From positions 7,182,701 through 7,246,700 of the forward strand of contig NC_037261.1 in NCBI RefSeq assembly GCF_000002425.4: a DNA stretch of 64,000 bases, given 5' to 3'. The translations under genes and the position numbers were made by a program. The notes below the pieces were generated by a model. It did no database searches and was not told where the DNA came from. It saw only the letters and a list, made by a program, of their open reading frames with translations. The stretch is from Physcomitrium patens (lineage: Eukaryota > Streptophyta > Bryopsida > Funariales > Funariaceae). Positions 5,148 to 57,935 of this stretch are shown in pieces (within the stretch, counting starts at the first letter, position 1; the number at the start of each line of letters is the position of its first letter).

Positions 5148-6206
5148 TTCGGAGAGCTGCCCGGAGGCGACGGGGTGTCGTGTTTCGCTTGAAGCCTTAC
5201 AATGTTCGCTTCAGCTCTTCGGTAGAGCATATGGGTCATGATGGAAGTGAGGAAGGGTTCCCAGAGTTCACCACGATTGTTTCTTGACCATAGTGATACC
5301 CTCAAATGCTTCGCCGCGACTGCGAGGGGCTGGTTGTGGAACAGTAGGTTAGAGAATGTGTCTTGTAATGCATGCGATAGGCCACATTCATTTGCCATTC
5401 ACGATACGACAATGGCTGGCATCGTCTGGTGTCTCGGAGAGTGCTTTGTACTGTTCGTAAACGATTTTGGCCCGTGCGTTATCATTGAAATGCTCACTTG
5501 TACTCTGCTTTAGCGGTTCTTATAGTCATCTGCTCAGTGTCGTTTTCTTAAACCAGGGCAAAAATGCCTGCAACCTAGATGGTTGATCCTGCGAACTTAA
5601 CTATGTCCAGCGTTGCAAGCCTCGGTTTTATGTGTTTTGGACCAGTGTGCTTGTTCTTCCTTGTTCCGAGTCAGACAACCTTCCTAGTCGGAATGTTAAC
5701 ATTTCTATCACACACTGAATTCTGTGGTAGTAGCGTCCATGCCGAATGAAGTGGACTTGTAACATCAGCTGAAATATTCGTTGTAAAATCTGCACCCGAT
5801 TCTTCTCGGCTATTTGGATGAAACGAGGGTGACCTAGACTCTGAATGTGCAGGAGTCTTGTTCATGTGATAACTGCAGTTTTGGGTTGTTTCTCGTGCTA
5901 CAAATGATCTGTTACTGAAGCAAGCCAGCTGTTTCAGTTCGGAGTAATTGGTGATCAAGGTGATGAGGCGGAATTCTAACGCCTTGTATGGCTGCAGATC
6001 CAGGTGTAGTAACGAGTTCTGCACCGTAGAGACGGTGTGATGTAAGCAACCAGGGGTTGGTATTTTCCGGTCGACAGAGTTGTAAGAGGAGAATTACAGA
6101 GATACTCGGATACATTTGAGAAGCAATCGGAGGCGTGGTTCTGACCACGCCAAATCAGACATTCAGAGCAGCTCTGGTGCTCCACGGAAAGGACATATCA
6201 GGGAAA

Positions 6207-8989
6207 ATGGGCTATGACAGATGTATACAGATTCTATCGGTTCTTCTTTTGTGCGGGGCGAGTTGGGCGCAGGGTCCTGTAGCGGCGCCAGCCCCGTCTT
6301 TTACACCTGCTGATGCAATTCGTATCGCGTGTGGCTCAGCCTCCGATGTCAAAATTGGCACACGGGTATTTGCAGCTGACAATGTTCCAGGAACAATAAA
6401 AGGAATTGCGGGAACGACTCTTCAGAATAACGGTGCTTTGTCGGCGTACGCTCCACTTCTCACCTCTGCGAGGTTCTTCACTGCTGGATCTAATTACACT
6501 TTCACAGTGAGTCCAGGGAGACATTGGGTTCGCCTGTTCTTCTATCCATTTGCGTTCTCATCTTTCCAGCCAAGTAATTCATTCTTTGACTTGACTGCCA
6601 ACGAGTTCGGTCTTCTCTCCAACTTCAGCGCAGTGACCTTCGTCACCGCAGACAGCCCTTATTTTGTTCGAGAGTACATCCTGAACATTACTTCAAAGGA
6701 ACTCGTTCTTACTTTCATTCCACGGCCAAGTTCGTATGCTTTCATAAACGCCATAGAGATTGTGTCTGCGCCAGATGGAATGGTGCAGGATGGCGCGACT
6801 ATACTGGGTGGAAGCTCTGTCGGTAACTTTGGCCTGAGCCGGTCGGCCCTGGAGACTATGCACCGTATCAATGTTGGGGGAGTCACCGTCACACCGGATG
6901 CTGATTCAGCGAACATGAGCAGGACGTGGATTCCAGATAGTCCGTATTTAATTTTTGGAGCCACAGGCAAAACCGAGTATACCCAAACTCAAGATATCAC
7001 GTACACCAATGTTCCTCAGTAAGTTGCAGCTTGCCCTCGCATGATCATGTTACAGGCCTTTTCATTATAGCTGAGTTCCCAGTATCTTTGATTTGTATCA
7101 GTATGGTGTAGAAGTTTCTAGAGTTGGAAATATGAGCCACTAACTCTGACGGTTGTGATTTCTTTCTTGCCGGATGAAGATATATTGCTCCTGCTGCCGT
7201 TTATGCGTCTGCGCTTACATTATCAGGCAGTGATGTGGTGAACGTCAATTACCAACTCAACTGGAATTTCACAGTGGACCCCGCCTTCGCGTACTTAGTG
7301 CGTTTTCACTTATGCGAGATTGTGTACCAGCGGCTCAATGAGCGTGTTTTCAATATTTACATCAACAACCAGGTCGCTTTTCCAGATCTGGATATAATCG
7401 CTAAAACCACTACTCCCCTCACTCCCTTGTACATGGACTTCATGGTGCCCATGTTCAATAACTATCCAGAAATAAATGTTATGATCGAATCGAGCAAGAC
7501 TGCTCAAAATTACAAGAATGCTATATTGAATGGTCTGGAGATTTTCAAGGTCAACAACTCTCGCTCCAGTCTTGCAGGCCCCAATCGTGTTGTAGTGCCA
7601 GATAATTCCACTGATGGTACACAAACTACAAATTCAAGCTCGAGCTCCAACTTAGGTGCCATCATCGGTGCGTCCATCGGGGGCGTAGCCGCTGTTCTTG
7701 TGGCGGCTGCGTTGGTCATCTTTTGTTGCTACAAGAAGAAGACCAAGTCTGACAAGCCTGGCGCACCAAGTCATTGGCTCCCGCTGCCTCTGCACGGCAG
7801 CAGTACTGACCACAGCAAAGTGTCGACTAGTTCGGCGAAGAGTGGGAAGAGTGGTGCAGGAAGTTATGTTTCTTCAGTTCCATCCAACCTGGGCAGGTAC
7901 TTCAGCTTCGCGGAGCTCCAAGAAGCCACGAACAACTTCGACGAGTCTTTGGTTTTGGGAGTGGGTGGATTCGGCAAGGTGTACAAGGGTGAGATTGACG
8001 ATGGGTCGAAAGTGGCGGTGAAGCGGGGAAACCCCAGGTCAGAGCAGGGTCTAAACGAGTTCCAAACCGAGATAGAGCTTCTGTCGAAACTCCGACATCG
8101 GCACCTGGTGTCACTGATAGGGTACTGCGAGGAACACGGTGAGATGATTCTTGTATACGATTACATGGCCAACGGTCCGCTCAGGGGTCACCTGTACGGA
8201 ACAGACGAGGCTCCTCTGTCGTGGAAGCAGAGGCTGGAGATTTGTATCGGTGCAGCACGAGGATTGCATTACCTACACACCGGCGCGGCGCAAGGGATCA
8301 TTCACAGGGATGTGAAAACCACGAACATCCTTCTGGACGAGAACTTCGTTGCCAAGGTGGCTGACTTCGGGTTGTCGAAAATCGGGCCCGCGAATGAAGT
8401 CACGCACGTGAGCACAGCCGTGAAGGGCAGCTTCGGGTACCTGGATCCCGAGTATTTCCGCAGACAGCAGCTGACGGAGAAGTCAGACGTGTACTCCTTC
8501 GGTGTCGTTCTCATGGAGGTGCTGTGTGCACGACCGGCAATCAATCCGGCCCTTCCTCGAGAGCAAGTGAACATGGCCGAATGGGCAATCAAGTACCAGA
8601 AAGCTGGCATGCTGGATCAGATCGTGGATGAGAAGCTACGGGGTTCAATCAACCCCGACTCGTTGAAAACATTCGGCGACACCGTCGAGAAATGTCTGCA
8701 GGAGCAAGGTATTGATCGACCTTCCATGGGTGACGTCCTGTGGAATTTGGAGTACGCCTTGCAACTACATGAAGCATCTGCTGAAAGTGCCATGTCCAGC
8801 CCAGATCAAGGGAACTTTAGCACCGACTCTGATAACAGCCACATGATCTCCGTGCCGTTGGTTGTACCCAACCTTTTCGATGACTCGATGACAGCGGACA
8901 CTGAACGAAGAATGCTGGAGGAGACCTCGTCCGAGGATCAATCGGCGAGCGCCATATTCTCTCAGTTGGTCAACCCTCAAGGAAGGTAA
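6207..8989 (+). CDS. CrRLK1L receptor-like kinase with malectin-like ectodomain (copy 2, complete)
   Basis: Two coding exons, 6207-7018 and 7180-8989, joined at CA|GTAAGT ... GAAG|A; together 873 residues. The Met at 6207 is chosen because it begins a classic signal peptide (CIQILSVLLLCGASWA); an upstream in-frame Met at 6135 would bury it. The ectodomain (about residues 30-430) is malectin-like, with IACGS at its start, HWVRLFFYPF, and APAAVYASA at the second exon start. A transmembrane helix follows (about residues 490-515), then a Ser-rich juxtamembrane region and a Ser/Thr kinase with LGVGGFGKVYKG, VAVKR, HRDVK, DFGLS and GYLDPEYF. This is the FERONIA/THESEUS/HERCULES family, plasma-membrane receptors for wall integrity and RALF-type signals. 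It lies downstream of, and in the same orientation as, copy 1. All catalytic motifs are intact. Confidence 0.95.
7019..7179 (+). other. Intron of CrRLK1L copy 2
   Basis: GTAAGT donor and a GAAG acceptor after a T-rich tract (TTTCTTTCTTG). Removing it restores the conserved ectodomain stretch across the junction. The intron falls within the ectodomain; many family members in flowering plants are intronless, so it may serve as a lineage marker. Confidence 0.88.
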
Positions 8990-9464: not shown

Positions 9465-12139
9465 GCTAGTCGTTTCTACGCGTCCTTGTGGTTCTCATGA
9501 CATGTCAAGAAATGAGTGCCTATTGTCATGGAATTTAATGTAGTTGTTTGGCTGTATTCGTTTCCTATCCAATTTTTTGGGGGATAGGTGACTATTTCAC
9601 GAGCTGTTCTTTGCGTAAGGACACACAGTAGAGGGTGACGACTATGTCTTGCGAATGAGAATACTACTTTCAAATTATCCTGTTTATTTTAATTTACACC
9701 ACAATCGTGTATTCTTTGCTACATTTTACTACATCTACCTCAAGCTGTGTTATCTCAGTGTATGGCAGGGGCTAGTGTTTAGGTTAACAGGGTCTAAATC
9801 ACAAGAATAAGTAGCTGTAGGGACTACACCTCAATAGCCAACATAAAGTTTTGGAACGCCTTCTGTTGTCAGAGATAGTGATCAAATACCTGCGTCTAGC
9901 CAGAGTGGCCATCAATTTGAGATAAGTCGTAACAATATGAATACAATGGAGAAGAGATGCTTTATGCATTGATTCTTTGTAGAGGTCTTAAGTTGGGTAC
10001 ATCTCACAAGGATATTTGGTAGACTGAACTCAGGACTGGAGTAAGAATTAGTGTTAATGACTTGAGTCGCAAACTTGTTACACTTTGTCGTTCTGCGTAA
10101 TTTTTTATTTCTGTTTTTTATATGAATGAAAGAAATGTGAGTGTTTCCTACACAAGCAACAAATTATATCAAATGAAATAGAAGAGAGAATCAGAGCAAG
10201 AATGGTTGAAAATACAATATCCTGTTGCGGATTGTAGGTATCAAACAATTATTTTTCACTGCACCAATGTCAGTGCCAGGACATGTAAGGCTCACAGTAA
10301 GTTAAAGAATAAACACGTTAATTAGGTTCTGAACTAGGTAAAGAAATATTCCATGAAACATGCTTCGATTCAGTCACATGGCAAATGTACATCAAAACCT
10401 AGCATGATCAATTGGGTCTTGGAGAATAAGGAAATTATTGCTTACAGTCATTTTGTTTAATAAGAAATGCAGATAAGAACACGAGTATTATGAATTATAG
10501 CTGGCTTAAATTAAACATGTGCAAACATCTTTAAATTAGAATGACTCGAAGAGAAATCTACTGTATCAAATTTTACACCTACGTGGTTAAACTTCTGAAA
10601 TAGAGTGCGATGTAAATCACCGATCAGTTTCTATGCACTAATTAAAATCCAAATGTTTGTTCAATCATCTGCTATTTTATGTAGGTTGCATTCATCACCT
10701 GCCTTTTCGTGAATTTTGGTTCACACCGTTGAGTTAGACCAACACTAACTCAGTTAACATCAATTTTAATTTTTCTGACTAAAAAATTTAAATTGAACTA
10801 TGTTAGAAAGGAGAAAACTTTGAAACATTCTCTCAAAACCAACACAACGAGAATTTTCAAAAGTTAACTATTGAAACAAATCGCAGGTGTGAAAAGAGTT
10901 GTGGATAAGACTGAGAACCTATGACCGACGGGTCGGTGGGACCTATACCCGTCTCTTATTGTACAATGTATAGTGTACAGTACAGAGTACGATGAGGACC
11001 AGGTGCAGACAGGCGAGCTCGGCCGGGCCCCGGCGAGGCTATGTCCGAACCCGTTCCGAAGAGTAGTGGCGGAAGATCAGAAGGTGCTGCTGCTCCGACG
11101 CTCAGTGGAATCACAGAATTGTCATCGTCGTCGTTTCGTTCTCGTTGTGTTTCATCTTGTGCACGTCAATCAGCGTTGCGCTGTGTAACGAGGGATTTTT
11201 GCCTTCGACATCAATCCTGGCTCTCTGGGAGTTGGGTCCCGAAAACTAGCAGGGAGGGAAGCGTGAGGTGGTACACCGAGGTACTGTTCTCGAAATGCGC
11301 ACTACCTTTGTTGCGTTGATTGGGTTTTAGGATGGTCGTGAGTTTCTGCGGTTAAACTCTTAGGAAGAATTGGGCACTTGGGTTGTTACGATTTTCCTGA
11401 TACATGCATTGGTTTTTAGCGCACATTTAGACCTATTTCGCTGAGGCGGTGTTGATGTAAGTGGTTTCTGTAAGGTGCTTAATTGCCATCGGTCTGTGGA
11501 ATCGGGATAGGGCGTGTGTTTGGGGGGTTTCCGCGAGCAGAAAAATTTATTTGGGATTCTCTGAAGGAAAAAGTGAATGCATTGCAAGCGAGGGACGATA
11601 ATTACTCTAGAAAATGGGAAGTGTGTTCTTCTTTTTTATCTAGCCGGAATTTTGTAGGCACTTGTTTTAATCTTTAAAAAAATTATATAAAATGAAATGC
11701 CCAATGCTGTGATAATTTTTGTCTGTTTTTTCAAGAAATGATGTTCGTGGATTGTTGGCTGGAGAGCTGATGCCATCCCGATCCTATTCGTGAGTATATT
11801 GTAGGTGTACCTCTTAGTGCAAGCAAGATTTTTTTTTATAATAGGTATCTGGAAAGGATCAAGTAGATGTATTGAGTTCTTCTCTTCACTCCTGGAACTT
11901 AACAGCTGTTGCAATCAGGTTCTACGATCTGAGCATCGAACTGTCCGGAAACAGTCTTCCGTATTTCAAACAAGGAAGATATCAAATTCGTCGCTATCAT
12001 AACCTCAGACTTCTTGTGGAAGTCCTCCTTAGCAACCCTCCCTTGCGAGTTCAGCTAGACATCTTCAGTGAGCTCAGTTACTAGCTTGGATACTCCGTCT
12101 GCATTGAGACGAGCGAAGACCTAGTCAAGGAGAACAGGA
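9465..12139. other. Intergenic region upstream of THIM
   Basis: 9465-10900 is AT-rich with no supported gene. A GC-richer patch at about 10920-11330 resembles a promoter/5' UTR zone, with an open frame from 11041 (MSEPVPKSSGGRSEG) that shows no family signature. It may be the start of the THIM transcript, whose leader could contain an intron; I cannot prove this from sequence. Nothing else is recognised. Confidence 0.4.
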
Positions 12140-42486: not shown

Positions 42487-42770
42487 GGACATGAATCTTA
42501 AAGAATTAAAAGATCAAGACATTCTTGTGTCACTCAAAAAGATTAGATAATCACTCAAAGATGATATGATATTATACTAGAATGGCTATTGCTAAAGATA
42601 AGAATACTAGAAAGTCTTGAAAATAAGACTAAGAAGTAGAAAGGCATTGACAAGAGTGAAGAAGGCTACACTCTTATTTCTACATATATTCTTAATTAGG
42701 AGCTATGTGGCAATATTCTATAGGACTTCTTAAATGTGTTGACTTTACAAGTCATGTTGTTATGTAGTAA
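42484..42770 (-). mobile_element. Inverted LTR fragment of the older gypsy family
   Basis: The reverse complement matches LTR sequence at 53700-53890 and, over a longer stretch including the tail, 57650-57935. Shared blocks include GAAGCCTTCTTCACTCTTGT (one mismatch in this copy) and CAATAGCCATTC. The copy is diverged and lacks both clean LTR ends. It shows the family also inserted in the opposite orientation close to element 1. Confidence 0.65.
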
Positions 42771-43976: not shown

Positions 43977-45759
43977 TAACCATTGTCCAAAGAAGCGATG
44001 CAACCATAAAATGAGGAGTACGGCGATTAAAGAAGACATCATGTCTGAAAAAGAATTTGTCCAGCTATAATAGGGACTATGCGGCTGGAACCTTGTACAA
44101 CGCCTAGTGAAGGTCCTATCCTCTCCTTAGAACCCTCTCTATGTATTACAATAAATGTTATTCTATGACCTAAACATCTCAAAGCCTCTGCCTTGCTAGA
44201 TTCAGGAGCCGTAGTATATTTCTTAGATGAAAAATTTGCTAAAAGACATAGCATATTTTTAGTAAAGAAAACTAAACTTGTTCATATAGAAGTCATAGAT
44301 GGTTGCCAAGTATTACAAAAACTAAGAGATGCAGGACTCTATACCAAGATAAAAAAGTGTGTATTTCACACTACTCAAGTTGACTTCTTAGGATACATCA
44401 TTTCAAATGATGGACTTATGATGGATCCTAAGAAAGTTCAAACTATTATGAATTGGAAGATCCCAAAAACGATAAGAGATGTCTAATATTTTTTGGGATT
44501 TGCCAACTACTATCAGATCTTCATCAAAGACTCCTCTCAAGTTGCATCTCTACTTACACATTTGACTTGTAAAGACAAACTTTAATGGAATCAAGAAGCA
44601 GAAGTAGTATTTGAAGCTTTGAAGACAATCTTTGTTTCTGCACTAATCTTGTATCGGGTCAATTTTTCTAAGCCATTTATTATAGAAACAGATGCATCAG
44701 ACTTTGCTTTGGGTGTATTATTGTCACAAATAGGAACAGATGATAAACTTCATCCAATAGCTTTTTATTTCAGAAAATTTTCAAGAGCCGAGATTAACTA
44801 CGAGATCCACGACAAAGAACTTCTTGCAATCATGGATTTGTTTCAAGAATGGCGCCATTATCTAGAAGGTGCTTCTAGCCCACTCACAGTGTATACGGAT
44901 CACAAGAACCTTGAATATTTTATATCAGCATGTATTTTGAATCATCGCCAAGCCCGTTAGAGTATGTCTTTGTCAAGATTTGAATTCAAGATCACTTATC
45001 GAGTAGGAAAACAAAAAGATTTGTCAAATGCACTCTCTAGACAATCTTATCTTTCACCAAAGGAAAGAGATGCTGCTTTTGATCAACAACGAATAATTCT
45101 CTTCAAGCTAGAGCATCTTCATCTTTGAGCAATGAAATCAATACTAACTGTTGATTCAACTTTCATTAAGCAAGTTCAGTCAAGTATGCCTTCTGATCCT
45201 CTTATTCGTGATATGAATAGAAATCCTTCAAAGCCTCATGATACTTTCAAGTTTGAATTCAATAAGAATCTATTATATTTTGAGGGATTCCTATATGTTC
45301 TAGAATGTGAAGCTCGATTACAAGTTCTTCAAGCTCATCATGACTTTCCAGCAACATGACATTTTGGGTACAATAAAACTTTGGAATTAATATCCAGAAA
45401 CTTTTGGTCCCTACAAATCTGGAAAGTAGTTAAAGATTTTGTACAATCTTGTGATCTTTACTCAAGATCAAAAATTCCTCAACCTTGCGGACTTCTTCAA
45501 CCATTACCCATTCCAAAACAACCATTGTCTTCTATTTCTATGGATTTTATCATGGATCTTCCAATCTCAGATTCTTATGGCTTTATATTCGTGATAGTAG
45601 ATCATTTTACCAAGATGGCACATTTTGTACCATATACAAAATCTATCATAAGTGAAGAAATAGCTAAGCTCTTTCTTGACAATATCTATCGTTATCATGG
45701 ATTACTCAAGGATATTATATCAGATAGGGGAACTCAATTTGTATCAAGATTTTGGCGGA
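43977..45759 (+). pseudogene. Gypsy element 1, left part of gag-pol (truncated, interrupted)
   Basis: Starts inside the gag zinc knuckle (HCPKK). The protease then follows with an intact DSGA core (LLDSGAVVYFLDEKFAKRH, read across frame breaks) to KLVHIEVIDG, directly joined to the reverse transcriptase thumb (VLQKLRDAGLYTKIKK). The RT palm of about 1 kb has therefore been deleted near 44316. RNase H (ETDASDFALGVLLSQIGTD ... YTDHKNLEYFISA) and the integrase N-terminus and core ([21 protein letters not shown]) follow. Several stops interrupt the frame. Coding stops at 45759, where element 2 is inserted; the remainder resumes at 52049 with [14 protein letters not shown]. Element 1 is thus older than element 2. 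Confidence 0.85.
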
Positions 45760-45798
45760 TGTTAGGGACATATTCCTTAGAACTTTCTAGAGAGAAGT

Positions 45799-46045
45799 TT
45801 CTAGAACCTTCTAGAAAACAAGCCTCTAGAACCTTCTAGAAGAGAAGCCTCTGGAACCTTTTAGAGAGAAGTTTCCAGAAGCTTCTAGAAAGGAAGTCTC
45901 TGGAACCTTCTAGAAGAGAAGTTTCTAGAAGCTTCTAGAAAGGAATCCCCTGGAACTTTCTAGAAGCTTCCTAGTTAATAGAAGTAGCTCGAGAAGTTTC
46001 TAGAACCTTCTAAAAAGGAAGCCTCTGGAATCTTCTAGAAGCTTC
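45799..46045 (+). promoter_or_regulatory. Heat shock element array in the LTR promoter
   Basis: Alternating GAA/TTC pentamers at the spacing bound by heat shock factor trimers. Perfect four-unit sites lie at 45799-45816, 45873-45890, 45923-45940, 45953-45970 and 46028-46045, with three-unit sites at 45829-45841, 45903-45915 and 45998-46010. All lie 40-290 bases upstream of the LTR TATA box. The same array is in the 3' LTR. That these sites confer heat induction is inference from the known HSE consensus and from heat-responsive plant retrotransposons such as ONSEN. Confidence 0.75.
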
Positions 46046-46086
46046 CTAGTTAATAGAAGTAGTTCGAGAAGCTTCATAAGTAGGAG

Positions 46087-46094
46087 TATATATA
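46087..46094 (+). promoter_or_regulatory. TATA box of the 5' LTR
   Basis: TATATATA followed by GG, preceded by the HSE array and followed by the R/U5-like pyrimidine-rich part of the LTR. The equivalent position in the 3' LTR is conserved. Confidence 0.75.
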
Positions 46095-46254
46095 GGAATC
46101 GAGGCTGAAGAGTTCTTCAGTCTCGACAACACATCTCTTGGAGTTCTAGCTCACTTTTCTTGTGTTGTTCTTGTACTCATCTATTTAATCTAGTTCTGCC
46201 ACTTCTTCTTGAACTTCTTCTTAGATTTCAAGTCTGTATTTTGTGTCCGTGACA

Positions 46255-46534
46255 GTTTGTCGAGACTGCACTAACTTGAGATATCAGAGCTAGTTCTTTC
46301 TTAGTAGAGTGTGGATTACCCCTCTACTTGAAGGTATACTAGCATTTTTTAGAGGTTGCGGATTACCCTCCTCTAAGCTGATACTTTTTCTGTTACAATA
46401 TTGGAGTCTTATTCTTCTTGGAGAGAGTGGATTACCCCTCTTCTTGAAATTCTTAAGGCGTTTTATAGGTTGTGGATTACCCTCCTATAAACCAATATTG
46501 CCTCTTATAGGGTCATTTTTGTCCTTCTTTTAGA
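46255..46534 (+). promoter_or_regulatory. Leader of gypsy element 2 with four GGATTACC stem-loops
   Basis: The 280 bases between LTR and gag hold a tandem duplication of about 115 bases, each unit with two stem-loops whose loops contain GGATTACC. Stem-loop A1: AGTAGAG (46303-46309) with CTCTACT (46322-46328). B1: TTAGAGG (46349-46355) with CCTCTAA (46370-46376). A2 near 46424-46441 is weaker. B2: TTATAGG (46463-46469) with CCTATAA (46484-46490). B1 and B2 differ by a compensated G-C to T-A pair. A primer-site-like GATATCAGAGC lies at 46280-46290, resembling the initiator-Met tRNA site, but 25 bases from the LTR rather than adjacent. Confidence 0.7.
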
Positions 46535-47560
46535 ATGGCTGGAGGTCAAGACATTAGTATGACAAAAAGTTCGGAGTCTAAGTTAGATGCTATTATGAAT
46601 GCCATCGCTACGTTATCACAAAGAACTGCAGAGATTGAAGGAGTGGTGGCAAGGCTTCATAATGATGGAGTATCTGGGATAGCACAATCTAAACTACACT
46701 AGCCTCAAATTTTGGCACTTGGAGAAACAACTTTACCTCAGGTTCGACAAGAACCACTAGTTCTACAACATAAGGAGCCTCGAGTTAGCCTTCCAGATAA
46801 GTTTGATGGAACACGTTCCAAGTTTCGAGGATTCGTCAATCAAATCAGGTTAATAATGGTTTTACAGCCCGAACGATATCCAACGGAGGAGTCACGTGGT
46901 GGGCTTGTTGGAACCTTACTTACGGGACAAGCTCTATCATGGTTTGCTCCTTTGTTTGAGAAACGATTATCCATATTAAACAACTTCGAAACCTCTTTGG
47001 AAGCATTTGCGGAAGCATTTGGTGAACACGATAAGGTTCGATGGGCTACAACAAAGATCCGGTCGCTACGACAAGGGATGCGTTCTACATCAGTCTATGC
47101 TTCGGATTTCAGGCAATTAGTATGCGACATCAATTGGGATGAAGAAGCGTTGATGAGTCAATTCTATTGGGGTTTAAGAGATGATGTGAAGGATTTGCTG
47201 TTAACTCTTTCTGATCCACGAACGCTCAATGAAGCCATTAGTCAAGCTGTGAAGTGTGACAATCGCCTATTCCAACGTCACCAAGACCAACGCTCAAGAC
47301 AACATACAATTCACCATGCTCCAACTATGTCGACAAGCGGTGTGAATTCGCATTGAGAGGTGGAAGACATGTAAATTGATGCGGTACGTATCAAATCTCT
47401 TACTATAGAAGAAAAAAAGCAACGTATGTAGGAAAATTTATGCTTGTATTGTGGTGGAGAAGGCCACAAAGTCGAAAACTGCCCCAAAAAGCAAAATCGA
47501 GGCATAGTCAAGACTAAGGGAGTATTTGTTCAGGAAAACGAGGATGCCCAGCCACAGTAG
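46535..47560 (+). pseudogene. gag of gypsy element 2 (four internal stops)
   Basis: ATG at 46535 begins MAGGQDISMTKSSESKLDAI. The capsid-like middle (KFRGFVNQIRLIMVLQPERY; LLTGQALSWFAPLFEK) resembles the retrotransposon gag domain. The CCHC zinc knuckle CLYCGGEGHKVENC is at 47441-47482, and the frame ends at TAG 47558-47560. Stops within the frame: TAG 46700, TGA 47354, TAA 47372, TAG 47429. Each lies one transition from a sense codon, so the protein was recently intact. The pol frame is open from 47509 and lies -1 relative to gag, giving about 50 bases of overlap, as in elements that reach pol by -1 frameshifting. Confidence 0.85.
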
Positions 47561-50500
47561 AAACCGTGCGGCTGGACAATGAAATATCCCAACAACAATC
47601 AGGTTCCTTTCTTTCTGCCCAACCTGCACTTTGTTTTACAATCCCTCTGTTTATCGGCCCTCAAAAACTGAGAACCTTAGCACTACTAGACTCAAGAGAA
47701 TCTACTTATTTTATAGACGAAGAATTTGCAAAGCGTCATAAGATCCCTTTAGTACAAAAATCAAAACTTGTTCATGTTGAGGTCATAGATGGGCGACCTT
47801 TATTGTCTAGTAGCATCACCCATGAATCAAAACCTATAGAAGTAATGTTTAAAGACCATAGTAGTCATATTATTTTTAATATTATTAGAACCCCATCAAA
47901 TCCTATTATTCTTGGTCTTTCTTGGTTGGAAAAATATAATCCATTGATAGATTGGAGGTTGCGGAAGATGACTTTTCCCACAAAACCACCTAAGAAAAAA
48001 CCTAGTAAAAAACCTCGAAAAAAGAAATCCTTATTCATTGGAGCAAGAGCGTTTATAAGATCATCTAAGGAAGGCACTCCATTTGTCATTTATGCGGCTC
48101 CAACTACCGAGGAGAAGATCTCAACAGCAAGTATACCGGAGCAATATAAAGATTTTGAAGACGTGTTTCAAAAGAAGAACGCCGACATACTACCGGAACA
48201 CCGACCATATGATTGTGCCATAGATTTGCAAGAAGGAGCACAACCACTTTTTGGCCCAATCTACAATCTATCGCAAACGGAGTTGGCAGAGTTACGAAAG
48301 TACATCGACGAGAATCTAGCCAAGAACTTCATTCGTCATTCAAAATCATCAGCTGGAGCACCCATCTTATTTGTGAAGAAGAAAGATGGATCATTACGGA
48401 TGTGTGTGGACTATCGAGGCCTCAACAAGGTAACAAAGAAAAATCGTTATCCATTACCCTTGATTTCTAGTCTCTTAGAACAACTTGGACATGCGAAGAT
48501 CTTTACAAAAATTGATCTAAGGGGAGCTTATAATCTCGTATGAATCAAGGAAGGAGATGAGTGGAAGACAGCATTCCGTACAAGGTATGGTCATTTCGAA
48601 TATAATGTCATGCCTTTTGGTCTTACCAATGCTCCAGCGGTTTTCCAACATATGATGAATGACATCTTTCGAGAACACCTCGACGATTTTGTTGTCATCT
48701 ACTTGGACGATATTCTAATATTCTCTAAAAACGAAGAAGAGCATGAGGAGCATGTTCGTTTGGTGTTGGAGAAACTACGCAAGCGAGGACTATATGCCAA
48801 ATTAGAAAAGTGTTTATTTCACCAGACGGAGATGGAATTTTTGGGGTTCATTGCGACTACAGAAGGTTTGAAGATGGACCCCAAGAAAGTAGAAGCAATC
48901 ATGTCTTGGGAGATTCCGAAGACGGTTAGAGACGTACAATGCTTTCTTGATTTTGCTAACTTCTATCGGATCTTGATCAAGAATTATTCTCAAGTTGCTG
49001 CTCCTCTCACTCGATTAACATGCAAGGATAAGTTGGAATGGGGACCTTTGGTGGAGAAGGCGTTTCAAGATTTGAAGACAACATTTACTACAGCTCCAAT
49101 TTTGGTACATCCAGACTTTACAAAGGCCTTCCATTTAGAAACTGATGCTTCAGATTTTGCTTTGGGAGCTGTGCTTTCACAAATGAGTGAAGATAAGAAG
49201 CTCCATCCAGTTGCATTCTATTCTCGGAAGTTCTCTGCTGCTGAAATCAATTATGAGATCCACGATAAGGAACTTCTTGCTATAGTGGATTCTTTCAAAG
49301 AATGGCGTCACTTTCTTGAAGGAGCTGCACATCCAGTAACCGTATATACGGATCACAAGAATTTGGAGTATTTCATGACGGCTCGAGTTTTAAATCGGCG
49401 TCAAGCTCGGTGGAATATGTCGCTATTTAGATTCGATTTTGTTATCACTTATCGACCTGGAAGGCAGCAACGACTATCCGATGCTTTATCAAGGAGATCG
49501 TATCTTGCACCAAAGGCTGGAGAAGCAGCGTTTGATCAACAATGTACAACGTTATTGAAGCTAGAGAGATTTCAACTTTGTGCTACTATTGTATCATTTG
49601 ATGGTGACTTCCTAAACCAGGTACGTGCTATGACCATTAAAGATTCAGTAGCCATTGATATCAAGCAACGTACCAATGACGACAAGTTCAAGGTGGAGGG
49701 AGATCTTTTATACTTTGAAGAGCGATTGTACATTCCAAAAGGACTAGCACGACTCCGAGTTCTTCAATCTCGCCATGATTTTCCAACTGCGGGACATTTT
49801 GGATTCAACAAGACCTTGGAGCTTATTTCCCGAGATTTTTGGTGGCCCCAAATGTAGAAGGATGTGAAAGATTTTGTCCTCTCCTATGATATCTGTTCAA
49901 GATCTAAGAATCCTCGGCATCGCTCTTATGGACTTCTACAGCCATTGCCAATTCCACGTCAACCATGGTCTTCTATTCCTATGGACTTCATCACGGACTC
50001 GCCATCATCAAACTCATTTGACAGCATCTTTGTCGTAATAGATCGGCTTATAAAAATGGCACACTTTGTTCCTTGTAAGAAGACATCGTCCAGTGAAGTC
50101 ACAGCAAGACTCTTTCTCGATAATGTGTATCGATATCATGGACTACCAGATGATATCATATTAGATCGAGGTACCCAGTTCGTGTCAAAGTTTTGGAGAT
50201 CTCTCTTTGATATATTGAAGGTGGATATCAAGCTTTCTTCAGCTTTTCATCCTCAAACTGATGGCCAAACGGAACGGGTGAACCAAGTCTTGGAGCAGTA
50301 CTTACGATGCAGCATCAACTATCAGCAAGACGATTGGACTGCATATCTACCGCTAGCCGAGTTTACATATAACAACACCCTCCATGCGTCGACTCAACAA
50401 ACACCATTCTTTTCCAACTATGGGTATCATCCGAAGCTTGATTTATTGAGTCCGTCAACAAATAACAATCCAGCAGCTGAAGGATTTGCGAAGCAACTAT

Positions 50501-51036
50501 CAGAGCTTCAAACTATGTTGAAGCTTCAATTACAATCCACTCAAGAATCCTATAAGACGTCTGCAGATAGATTTCGGAATCCAGCACCTACTTTCAAAGT
50601 TGGAGACAAAGCCTGGCTTCTTCGACGAAATATCAAGACCAAGCGACCATGTGATAAGTTGGACTATCGAAGATTGGGACCATTTATCATCCAGAAGCAA
50701 ATTAATCCAGTGGCATACCGGCTGGAGTTACCGGCCTCGATGAAGGTACATCCAGTCTTTCATGTTTCTCTGTTGGAACCTTATCGAGAGTCATCTTTTC
50801 TTGGAAGAGTGCAATGTCCGCCACCTAGTATTGAAATCGAGAACCACGAAGAATACGAGGTTGAAAAGGTATTGGATTCACGGCGAAGGTGGGGAAAGTT
50901 AGAATATCTTGTTCATTGGTGCGGCTATGACATTAATGAGCGAACGTGGGAGCCAGCTGAAAATCTTGCAAATGCGCCACAAAAGGTACAGGAGTTTCAT
51001 CAACGACATCCCGATAAACCTAAATCAATTCGATGA
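47509..51036 (+). pseudogene. pol of gypsy element 2: protease, RT, RNase H, integrase, chromodomain
   Basis: Nearly intact polyprotein with two stops: TGA at 48541 (expected Arg in NLVRIKEGDEW) and TAG at 49855 (Trp expected from relatives). Order: aspartic protease ALLDSREST near 47685, where the catalytic DSG has become DSR; RT with [33 protein letters not shown] and the catalytic YLDD; RNase H with TDASDFALGAVLSQM and HDKELLAI; integrase with a zinc-binding start (HDFPTAGHFG ... CSRSK, first Cys of the CxxC replaced by Tyr), catalytic Asp in [19 protein letters not shown], and Glu in [13 protein letters not shown]. At the C-terminus is a chromodomain ([30 protein letters not shown]), which defines a chromovirus and probably steers integration to marked chromatin. 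The element copies itself through RNA. Confidence 0.95.
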
Positions 51037-51152
51037 TAGCTTCTTTCTGAAGCTTGTTCTGCCAACAATATAAGAAAAGGGGAGAGCACCAGCAAAATTC
51101 ATAGTTGATGTAGTTATTTTCTCCAAGATAGATCGTAGTTTGGTCTTTTGAT

Positions 51153-51506
51153 ATGGATAGCCAAGAGATAGATACTATGCTAGTCAGAGTATCGCAACGG
51201 AGTAGCTCACGAAGGCGATCCCGAGATGAAGAACTACATGTACCACGATGACGACGGAGGATACCGAGTAACCGATCACTGGTGATCGTATTTGAGATCG
51301 AGCCTACTTACGATGGTCAACTAGAAGGCGTGTTTGCAGGACAATTTCACAATGAGGACACGGAAGTTCATGCTTGGTCAGAAGTCGAAGGCGTGGGCCA
51401 CTACCATTGGCTTCAAGGGTCGATGAACCACTTGCCTCGTGAACAACAGTTGGAGTTCATAGCAGAAGTTATGCGACAGATCTTTATTTTCTTGCGTTGG
51501 TACTGA
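51153..51506 (+). pseudogene. Extra small ORF between pol and 3' LTR (gypsy element 2)
   Basis: ATG at 51153 opens MDSQEIDTMLVRVSQRSS, then an Arg/Ser-rich stretch (SRRRSRDEELHVPR). A single TGA at 51249 (probably from CGA) follows, and the frame stays open to 51506, about 117 codons in all. The C-terminal half carries YDGQLEGVFAGQF and YHWLQGSMNHLPREQ. A related frame occurs at the same place in the diverged element 1 (53077-53397) with YLWLRGPINHLRREQ, so the ORF was probably under selection. I recognise no known domain. It is not an envelope gene: no signal peptide or transmembrane segment is visible. Confidence 0.65.
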
Positions 51507-51553
51507 TCAACAACATTGCTTCTCAGAGACCTCGAAGCTAAAGGAGGAGGTGA

Positions 51554-52048
51554 TGTTAGGGACATATTCTTTAGAACTTTCTAGAGAGAAGTTTCTAGAA
51601 CCTTCTAGAAAACAAGCCTCTAGAACCTTCTAGAAGAGAAGCCTCTGGAACCTTTTAGAAAGAAGTTTCTAGAAGCTTCTAGAAAAGAAGTCTCTGGAAC
51701 CTTCTAGAAGAGAAGTTTCTAGAAGCTTCTAGAAAGGAATCCCCTGGAACTTTCTAGAAGCTTCCTAGTTAATAGAAGTAGCTCGAGAAGTTTCTAGAAC
51801 CTTCTAGAAAGGAAGCCTCTGGAACCTTCTAGAAGCTTCCTAGTTAATAGAAGTAGCTCGAGAAGCTTCCTAAGTAGGAGTATATATAGGGATCGAGGCT
51901 GAAGAGTTCTTCAGTCTCAACAACACATCTCTTGGAGTTCTAGCTCACCTTTCTAGTGTTGTTCTTGTACTCATCTGTTTAATCTAGTTCTGCCACTTCT
52001 TCTTGAACTTCTTGTTAGATTTCAAGTCTGTATTTTGTGTCCGTGACA
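51554..52048 (+). mobile_element. 3' LTR of gypsy element 2 (495 bp)
   Basis: Preceded by a polypurine tract (AAAGGAGGAGGTGA). Same ends, length, HSE array and TATA box as the 5' LTR. The sequence after it resumes the integrase frame of element 1. Confidence 0.95.
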
Positions 52049-53438: not shown

Positions 53439-53997
53439 TGTCACAGACATATGCATGTAAGCCAATAATTACATGTATAAATAGATAGAAGTAAGTAAAA
53501 GTTGATAAAAATAAGTTAATTCTATAGTATTTGGTATAGAAGCTTTCTAGAAGCTTCATAGACGCTGCTTTGACTTTATAGGTATCTTTAATTGACTTTT
53601 TGGAATTAGAAACGTGGTCAAAAAGTTGGCCATGTGCCACACATGTTGTTAGCTTGAAGACCAAGCTAACTATGTGGCCCATACATAGAAAAATTAGCCT
53701 TGTAAGTCAACACATATGTCCTACAAAATCAACACATATTGGAGGTCCGATAGAACATCGCCATGTAGTCCCTAGTTAGATAGTATATATAAAAACAAGA
53801 GTGAAGCCTTCTTCACTCTTGTCAACTCCTTTCTTGCTTCTAGTCTAGTTTCAAGGGTCTCTAGTTTTCTTGGCTTTTGGCAATAGCCATTCTAGTTTCT
53901 TTATTAATAATTATATCAAGTTATTTCTATTTTGTCATCTTTCTATGAAAGAAGTCTTACTTGTTTATTTGTCTTTATGATGTTCTTCTCTTTGACA
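53439..53997 (+). mobile_element. LTR of the older gypsy family (559 bp)
   Basis: Follows a polypurine tract (AGAAAGGGAGGTAA) after element 1. It begins TGTCACAGACATATG and ends TTTGACA, giving TGTCA/TGACA inverted ends. It holds a TATA box (GTATATATAAAAAC near 53782) and one three-unit HSE at 53545-53557. It serves as 3' LTR of element 1; gag of element 3 starts within a few bases after it, so the two may share it. Related but diverged LTR sequence is at 57650-57935 and, inverted, at 42484-42770. Confidence 0.75.
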
Positions 53998-57000: not shown

Positions 57001-57640
57001 CTATTATCAAGATGATTGGACAGCTCTTTTACGATTAACAGAGTTTGCATACAATAATTTGATACATTCTTCTACTCAACAAACACTTTTCTTTGTCAAT
57101 TATGGTTATCATCCACAACTTGATACTTTTGACTTTTCAAAAGTTGATAATCTTGCGATGGAAGATTTAGCAAATCATTTGTCGAAGCTACATGCAACAA
57201 TAAAGATGCAATTAAAGAAAGCTCAAGAATGAAAAAAGACTAATGTACATGCCTATCGCAATGAGCAACTCAATTCAACGTAGGTCACAAGGTATAGTTA
57301 CTTCATTACAATATCAAGACTACTTGTGATTGTGATAAGTTGGACTATTGTAGGCTAGGACCTTTTCTTATTTGTAAACAAATCAATCCTATTGCTTATC
57401 AATTATATCTATAAAGATCGACCCTAGATTTCATGTGTTCCTTCTTGAGCCGTACAAGACAATGAATATCTCAAGAAGAAGACAAATATCCCATCTCCTC
57501 CTATAGAAGTAGATAATAATAAAGAATTTGAAGTGGAAGAAGTCGTAGACTCAAGGTGGTGCCAAAATAGGTTGGAACATATTGTTCATTGGCATGCATA
57601 TGATATTAGTGAATATACATAGAAACCATTAAAGACATGC
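54001..57640 (+). pseudogene. Gypsy element 3: decayed gag-pol
   Basis: A heavily decayed relative of element 1. gag from 54001 (MEEIQSLH, then SALQSNSGGLTSTSSREARI and a capsid-like region) and a zinc knuckle near 54780 (YCGGAKQTTQHC). The protease is mostly lost. RT from about 55110 ([13 protein letters not shown] remnant, YNVMPFGFTN, LDYILIYSKN where the DD pair reads DY), RNase H at about 55800-56060 with many breaks, integrase from about 56620 (PWSFISMDFIIHLSS; DIISDKETQFVSRF; FHPQTDEQTKRVNQ). The chromodomain is at 57510-57620 (FEVEEVVDSR...). It lacks the extra 3' ORF and the first part of its 3' LTR; a deletion joins the chromodomain to mid-LTR sequence near 57640. Confidence 0.8.
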
Positions 57641-57935
57641 AAGTTAAGGCATGTAGTTAGCAAAGTCAATATGTTTTGGAGGTCCTATAGGACATTGCTA
57701 CGTAACTCATAATTAAGAATATATATAGAGGCAAAAATGAAGCCTTCTTCACTCTTATCAATGTCTTTTTAGTCCTTAGTCTTGTTTCAAGACTTTCTAG
57801 TCTTCTTGTTTTTTGACAATAGCCATTCCAGTTCAATATTATATCACCTTTGAGTGACTCTCTAGTTCCTTTCAATGATATAAGAGTGTATTGAAGTTTT
57901 TCTTTCTTCAAGATTCATATCCTTGATACATGGTA
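57641..57935 (+). mobile_element. Truncated LTR after gypsy element 3
   Basis: Matches 53700-53890 (shared GAAGCCTTCTTCACTCTT and CAATAGCCATTC) and extends with a tail found only in the inverted copy at 42484-42770. The LTR start is missing. Confidence 0.65.

Follow-up and report, generated by a model that had tools for sequence, protein, structure and literature searches.

We found that the U3 region of both long terminal repeats (LTRs) of a Ty3/gypsy chromovirus in the moss Physcomitrium patens contains a dense array of heat shock elements (HSEs), which lies upstream of a TATA box and is kept as at least one four-unit site in all parsed copies of our samples. Run counts and Pfam domains support, for both LTRs, the presence of such an array in the U3 of a chromovirus, which had been put forward in an initial annotation of this DNA. 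We tentatively propose that the array is a genuine cluster of HSF sites that would act as an enhancer part of the U3 promoter of a Tcn1-type chromovirus that is very abundant in the moss and is most likely the family described as RLG1, and that it is not a simple heat-on switch, a reading to which we assign a probability of about 0.45.

Results

The element (element 2) occupies 6,289 bp (45760–52048) of the window, by which we mean the whole 64,000-nucleotide stretch of DNA analysed here, and all of its stranded features are on the forward strand. Alignment of the two LTRs placed the 5′ LTR, which has the form TG...CA, at 45760–46254 and the 3′ LTR at 51554–52048, each 495 bp long, with 14 differing positions between them and a K2P distance of 0.029. 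By visual inspection, the flanking sequences GCGGA and GCGAA resemble an imperfect target duplication of 5 bp, and element 2 lies within an older gypsy element, having been inserted into its integrase gene (45360–45755). The Pfam analysis indicated a gag ORF piece at 46703–47353 (Retrotrans_gag and Ty3_capsid), the protease and the start of RT at 47518–48540 (RVP_2, with RVT_1 slightly below the curated cut-off), RT, RNase H and the start of the integrase at 48544–49854, and the integrase core, a Tf2-like SH3 domain and a chromodomain at 49858–51033 (SH3_Tf2-1 and Chromo above their cut-offs, rve slightly below). The chromodomain, C-terminal on the integrase, was matched by PF00385 at 3.7e-17, and the Tf2-1-like SH3 domain by PF24626 at 6.5e-20. 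A polypurine tract, recognised from its sequence, precedes the 3′ LTR at 51540–51550. Because stop codons split the pol region into three ORFs of one frame, this copy probably cannot function autonomously. Elsewhere in the window, a gene for a malectin-like receptor kinase is represented by ORFs at 6120–8989.

An HSE run was defined as a series of strictly alternating GAA and TTC units with unit starts 5 bp apart. By this run count, the 5′ LTR has nine strand-neutral runs of at least three units (36 units), six of which have at least four: three five-unit runs (45794–45816, 45868–45890 and 45918–45940), three four-unit runs (45953–45970, 45993–46010 and 46028–46045) and three three-unit runs (45829–45841, 45903–45915 and 46063–46075, the last adjoining the TATA box). 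The initial annotation had named five four-unit sites and spoken of additional three-unit sites; all five four-unit sites were found at their stated positions, three of them being in fact five-unit runs, and its count was too low in that the sixth run of at least four units, at 45993–46010, had been missed. The array is also kept in the 3′ LTR, as had been noted, with eight runs of at least three units (34 units), six of them of at least four, and the window minus element 2 (57,711 bases) has two runs of at least three units and none of at least four.

None of 5,000 dinucleotide shuffles and none of 5,000 unit-preserving shuffles of U3 matched the observed run counts. For a tandem repeat such as this array, a fairer test than a shuffle of the whole U3 is to treat it as one duplicated founder of 25–50 bp; when five founders were shuffled 20,000 times each, a run of at least four units was contained in 0.01–0.06% of the shuffled founders and a run of at least three units in 0.38–0.54%. 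The comparison with repeat composition that the initial annotation had raised thus gives an HSE density above expectation. Successive units are spaced by 5 bp in 32 of 48 cases, and 28 of these 32 alternate. The spacers are of the forms TTC-TA-GAA and GAA-GC/CC/GT-TTC, TA filling 10 of the 13 TTC-NN-GAA spacers of the 5′ LTR and 12 of the 13 of the 3′ LTR. As RNA, the array folds much better than its shuffles (z −5.8; 0 of 200 shuffles), as would be expected if the U3 at the 3′ end of the transcript formed long hairpins for dimerisation, packaging, 3′-end formation or siRNA production. We regard such an RNA-level role as very improbable, since an alternating GAA/TTC array is always self-complementary, so that the HSE pattern itself accounts for the fold, and a hairpin needs no 5-bp phase.

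The TATA box (TATATATA) was found at 46087–46094, where the initial annotation had placed it. The 12 nt at 46118–46129 are the exact complement of a 12-nt self-priming primer-binding site at 46257–46268, 2 nt beyond the 5′ LTR, and as this complementarity fixes the start of R, the 5′ end of the transcript is placed at about 46118. This putative start is about 31 bp past the TATA box and has the array about 40–325 bp upstream of it, with four-pentamer HSEs present there in six runs of at least four units. The 12-mer at the R start is exact in 88 of 107 parsed LTR entries and has at most one mismatch in 105 of the 107, a set that includes one wrong parse (L054). The self-priming arrangement is known from Tcn1-clade elements of mosses and club-mosses, as described in PMC6317226.

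To sample copies, we used sequence outside the array and fetched the 30 best R-U5 matches (the window LTR among them) and 20 exact polypurine junctions. As a result, at least one site of at least four units was present in 49 of 49 parsed LTRs of the 50 fetched, both samples being biased to close copies; retention by other genomic copies, a point left to be checked by the initial annotation, is thus borne out for such copies. A run of at least four units was seen in 30 of 30 LTRs of the R-U5 sample, with four or more such runs in 19, and in 19 of 19 parsed LTRs (20 fetched) of the junction sample, with four or more in 1. Since the two samples differ in this way, the dense array is one of several U3 types. 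The LTR set comprises 107 parsed entries, 102 of them distinct (L054, a false boundary, is counted without being a type; L089 and L100 are not in it, as their boundaries did not parse), and is divided into type 1 (65 distinct LTRs, 12–44 units, 392–580 bp), type 2 (4 distinct LTRs, 8–15 units) and type 3 (32 distinct LTRs, 4–14 units in just one to three runs). The parsed copies of 495 bp have four to six runs of at least four units. Mean distances between types 1 and 3 are 0.34 in U3 and 0.105 in R-U5, and those between types 1 and 2, the latter represented by four LTRs, are 0.35 and 0.04; in the 472-bp class of type 3, R-U5 is almost identical to that of the window LTR, and when L012 is compared with the window LTR, R-U5 is again almost identical and mid-U3 very different. 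Because U3 is distant while R-U5 is close between the types, U3 modules seem to have been exchanged between lineages or subfamilies.

The array has tandem periods of 25, 50 and 74–75 bp. The LTR start is unchanged in 51 type-1 entries, of which 39 have a length of 495 bp, 8 fall on a 25-bp ladder (395, 420–421, 445–446 and 520 bp) and 4 lie off it (488, 505, 565 and 580 bp); furthermore, L112 and L131, which belong to a single element, are set apart by a 50-bp block. These periods and length classes support the earlier suggestion that local tandem duplication built the array, which may have expanded by duplication of a pentamer-phased unit of about 25 bp. Short LTRs of about 310–435 bp with 7–16 units include four older pairs (K2P 0.050–0.083) and one young pair, L139/L140 (0.022). 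In L114 and L117, relatives with short LTRs, some 100 bp including the LTR terminus are tandemly duplicated, which leaves HSEs 101 bp apart.

The initial annotation had derived the growth of the array from a comparison with the older LTR at 53439–53997, and this argument fails because that LTR belongs to a different LTR family. Its lone three-unit site (53545–53557) was confirmed by the run count, and what it has in common with the element 2 LTR is a 56-bp core-promoter stretch (75%) and short HSE-like matches; sharing little else, it was ruled out as the ancestor of the array. Its junction has 1,722 genome matches within 3 mismatches, exact in 5, and it represents a second, older LTR family of similar general kind. 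Fragments related to the older LTR are present at 42576–42746 (inverted) and 57615–57833, with identities of 80% and 74%, and probably derive from further gypsy elements.

Growth by tandem duplication is also what would be expected of a neutral, replication-driven repeat, in which a 25-bp palindromic unit spread by slippage or template switching in reverse transcription and the resemblance to HSEs is merely inherited from a single older site that was functional and lay close to the start of the LTR. The steps of about 25 bp between length classes and the 50-bp block that distinguishes L112 from L131 are consistent with it, and so are the equal youth of few-site types and the outcome of a constraint test on shared versus singleton variants in 45 distinct 495-bp LTRs. 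In this test, the GAA/TTC cores did not differ significantly from the other U3 positions (Fisher p = 0.18) or from R-U5 (p = 0.23), and 44 of 315 circular shifts were equally or more extreme. Purifying selection on the cores is thus not supported by these overall tests; the A/T core positions are the least variable (diversity 0.0031 vs 0.0137 in other U3), and the G/C core positions are not less variable (0.057 vs 0.059). The possibility that dense arrays are simply the youngest was rejected, K2P being 0.010–0.067 for dense pairs (10 pairs, global alignment; the 0.067 pair falls to 0.017 in local alignment) and 0.007–0.041 for sparse type-3 pairs (6 pairs). The correlation of units with age was −0.38 (Spearman, p = 0.055) in 26 LTR pairs, of which the dense ones were partly selected for closeness to a young LTR, and −0.14 (p = 0.73) in 9 pairs for which possession of an HSE was the sole sampling criterion. 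As type-3 LTRs are as numerous and as young, the success of the family needs no dense array. Because no selection on the sites was demonstrated, the neutral-repeat explanation keeps some weight; we nevertheless judge it unlikely, given the rarity of runs of at least four units in shuffled founders and the 5-bp, mostly alternating unit spacing.

The genome scanned amounts to 470 Mb in 101 contigs; its plastid psaB product agrees at 733 of 733 residues with the PDB chains 6l35_B and 8htu_B, which belong to photosystem I of P. patens. Within 3 mismatches, the polypurine/3′-LTR junction has 2,735 genome matches and the 5′-LTR/primer-site junction 2,707, and the reversed control of each has 0. At G000:C1:24867448 and 24867496, two exact polypurine/3′-LTR junctions were found 48 bp apart, perhaps by tandem duplication of the junction. 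The perfect four-unit HSE GAANNTTCNNGAANNTTC occurs at 11,443 genome sites as compared with 81 for its reversed control, and that of the other phase, TTCNNGAANNTTCNNGAA, at 8,121 as compared with 114; each five-unit run holds one of either phase, and the phases overlap in longer runs. From the first listed GAANNTTCNNGAANNTTC sites, on contig C1 below 1.8 Mb, 39 clusters were delimited by eye and alternate ones were examined (n = 19). Judged by LTR termini, 11 of the 19 are inside LTRs of the element 2 family, BLAST places 7 further clusters in LTRs of this family that are shorter or have diverged, and L115 is the sole one outside, so that 18 of 19 are inside in this one stretch of C1. This proportion, from one contig, suggests that most perfect four-unit HSEs of the P. 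patens genome are transposon-derived, which, if the sample holds, matters for scans of moss promoters for heat elements. TATA-proximal patterns gave counts of 974 type-1 and 1,050 type-3 LTRs, and a 69-bp stretch of the dense type has 301 exact genome copies. Because of these 301 copies, and because the 974 type-1 matches include short arrays such as those of L139/L140 (12 units), we conclude that dense LTRs number in the hundreds.

Regarding the identity of the family, element 2 has Tcn1-clade features, namely a chromodomain on the integrase and self-priming in place of a tRNA primer-binding site. By eye, its chromodomain has Y, W and Y at what we take to be the cage positions of a group I aromatic cage. 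An aromatic cage is reported for 95% of Tcn1 elements (PMC6317226). Among the 120 matches listed of 6,945 for the RT–RNase H ORF, the organism-named minority was fungal, vertebrate and amoebal, and none was from a seed plant. RLG1 is described as the most abundant P. patens family, in which 5,092 copies are complete; it predominates among the gypsy families with a chromodomain in this moss, and its youngest copies are expressed (PMC7466625). The copy number, the chromodomain and the Tcn1 features including self-priming make it very probable that the element 2 family is RLG1, an assignment made by abundance and features; the junction counts place the family in the thousands, and its abundance was compared with that of one other family, the older LTR family of the window. 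RLG2, which is induced by heat and ABA, was excluded by its copy number of 529 complete copies, 25 of them close to its RNA (PMC7466625). It is improbable that the element is a member of RLG3 or of some other gypsy family that has a chromodomain, in which case the report of heat repression discussed below would be inapplicable and the identity would be compatible with any other reading of the array. RLG3 is described in the same source as polymorphic, with no detected expression (PMC7466625). The 2,735 and 2,707 junction copies fit a family with the complete-copy number of RLG1, and not that of RLG2.

Discussion

HSEs in LTRs are customarily interpreted as a heat-on switch. RLG1, however, is reported to be expressed in unstressed protonema and to be repressed by heat shock, UV-B and protoplasting (PMC7466625). 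Heat induction of the element, as proposed in the initial annotation, is therefore doubtful in its simplest form and, if the family is RLG1, contradicted at the family level. Because the RNA is on in growing protonema and down after heat, we suppose that the array chiefly exploits HSF that is active in growing filaments even without stress. HSF trimers would bind the array co-operatively at its distance of about 40–325 bp from the start, which would make transcription from the LTR HSF-dependent; in heat, transcription would fall, either because class A HSFs are attenuated or because class B HSFs, acting as heat-induced repressors, occupy the same sites. We infer both the binding of HSF and the direction of the heat response. 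In an early heat-induced module of P. patens, the motif GAAGYTCTAGA, matched to HSFA1E, is reported in the promoters of 49 of the 100 top genes (PMC7073223), and the two forms of array spacer resemble this motif. The host genome has eight matches to the HSF DNA-binding domain, each covering the first 59–60 of 100 profile positions. Four HsfB2-like genes are described in P. patens, two of them up at 1 h at 37 °C, and repression by HsfB2-like proteins is considered possible but untested by the authors of that report (PMC7073223).

A doubtful alternative, which still deserves some weight, is an ONSEN-like switch, in which heat acts via class A HSFs to induce the dense type-1 copies strongly and perhaps transiently, and this induction is hidden in family-level RNA because other U3 types give most of the transcripts or because the time point missed it; the RNA assembly of RLG1 may indeed average over U3 types. 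ONSEN, which uses few HSEs, as the initial annotation had stated, is reported to be induced as much as roughly thousand-fold with a single 4P and a single gap HSE in each LTR (PMC5059998), compared with six runs of at least four units in the window LTR, and the dense copies, with 301 exact matches of the 69-bp stretch, are in the hundreds. The array is also CG-poor, with 1 CG in 266 bp (45780–46045; o/e 0.09, as compared with 0.81 in the element interior), which recalls the ONSEN promoter, described as free of CG and CHG (PMC3907296). However, the array keeps 5 CHG in the 266 bp and is thus CG-depleted without being CHG-free, and the HSE-poor older LTR in the window is likewise CG-poor (o/e 0.26). 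Moreover, data that indicate repression of RLG1 by heat shock (PMC7466625) could hardly have overlooked hundreds of strongly induced LTRs. We consider a growth-phase HSF enhancer more likely than masked heat induction of the dense copies.

If the family is RLG1 and heat shuts RLG1 down, the number of HSEs does not predict the direction of the response, and probably either the transposon has co-opted HSF for its expression during growth or repressor HSFs hold it off. A bolder view, which we hold to be quite unlikely, is that the likely dominant retrotransposon of the moss has made the HSE both a non-heat enhancer and the main genomic reservoir, or sink, of strong HSF sites; nearly 20,000 scattered four-unit matches (phases overlapping) could in that case tune the HSF that is free for host heat genes. 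To our knowledge, the array is among the densest of its kind.

According to the sources cited here, HSE-bearing LTRs, heat-induced gypsy transcripts and transposon-supplied HSEs are already known. That gypsy elements can respond to heat was known before, since heat-induced Ty3/gypsy transcripts of Cryptomeria japonica and Scots pine are covered in a review (PMC9780303), the main text of which contains neither 'HSE' nor 'heat shock element'. The main text of PMC7466625 likewise does not contain 'heat shock element', 'motif' or 'subfamil'. Among the literature matches listed, at the level of titles and abstract openings, none described a chromovirus with four to six runs of at least four units per LTR, hundreds of such LTRs and a response of opposite sign.

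Like the present family, Helitrons of Caenorhabditis supply many genomic HSEs in dense clusters; they are, however, DNA transposons for which HSF-1 binding and heat up-regulation have been shown (PMC6927752), whereas the sites of the array are predicted ones. The LTR retrotransposons TCN3 and TCN12 of the fungus Cryptococcus also have putative HSEs, just two in the LTR of TCN3 and one in that of TCN12, and they mobilise at 37 °C (PMC12810828), a temperature response opposite to the one reported for RLG1. Another close parallel is ONSEN/COPIA78, a Ty1/copia element of Brassicaceae, which has a four-pentamer HSE in an LTR promoter with few CG sites and in which the HSE arose through duplication of a shorter proto-site (PMC3907296, PMC5059998). 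ONSEN has eight full-length copies in A. thaliana and a proven HSF-dependent heat induction (PMC3907296, PMC5059998), whereas the element described here is a gypsy chromovirus with four to six runs of at least four units per 495-bp LTR and hundreds of dense LTRs, and the RNA data for its likely family, RLG1, indicate repression by heat (PMC7466625).
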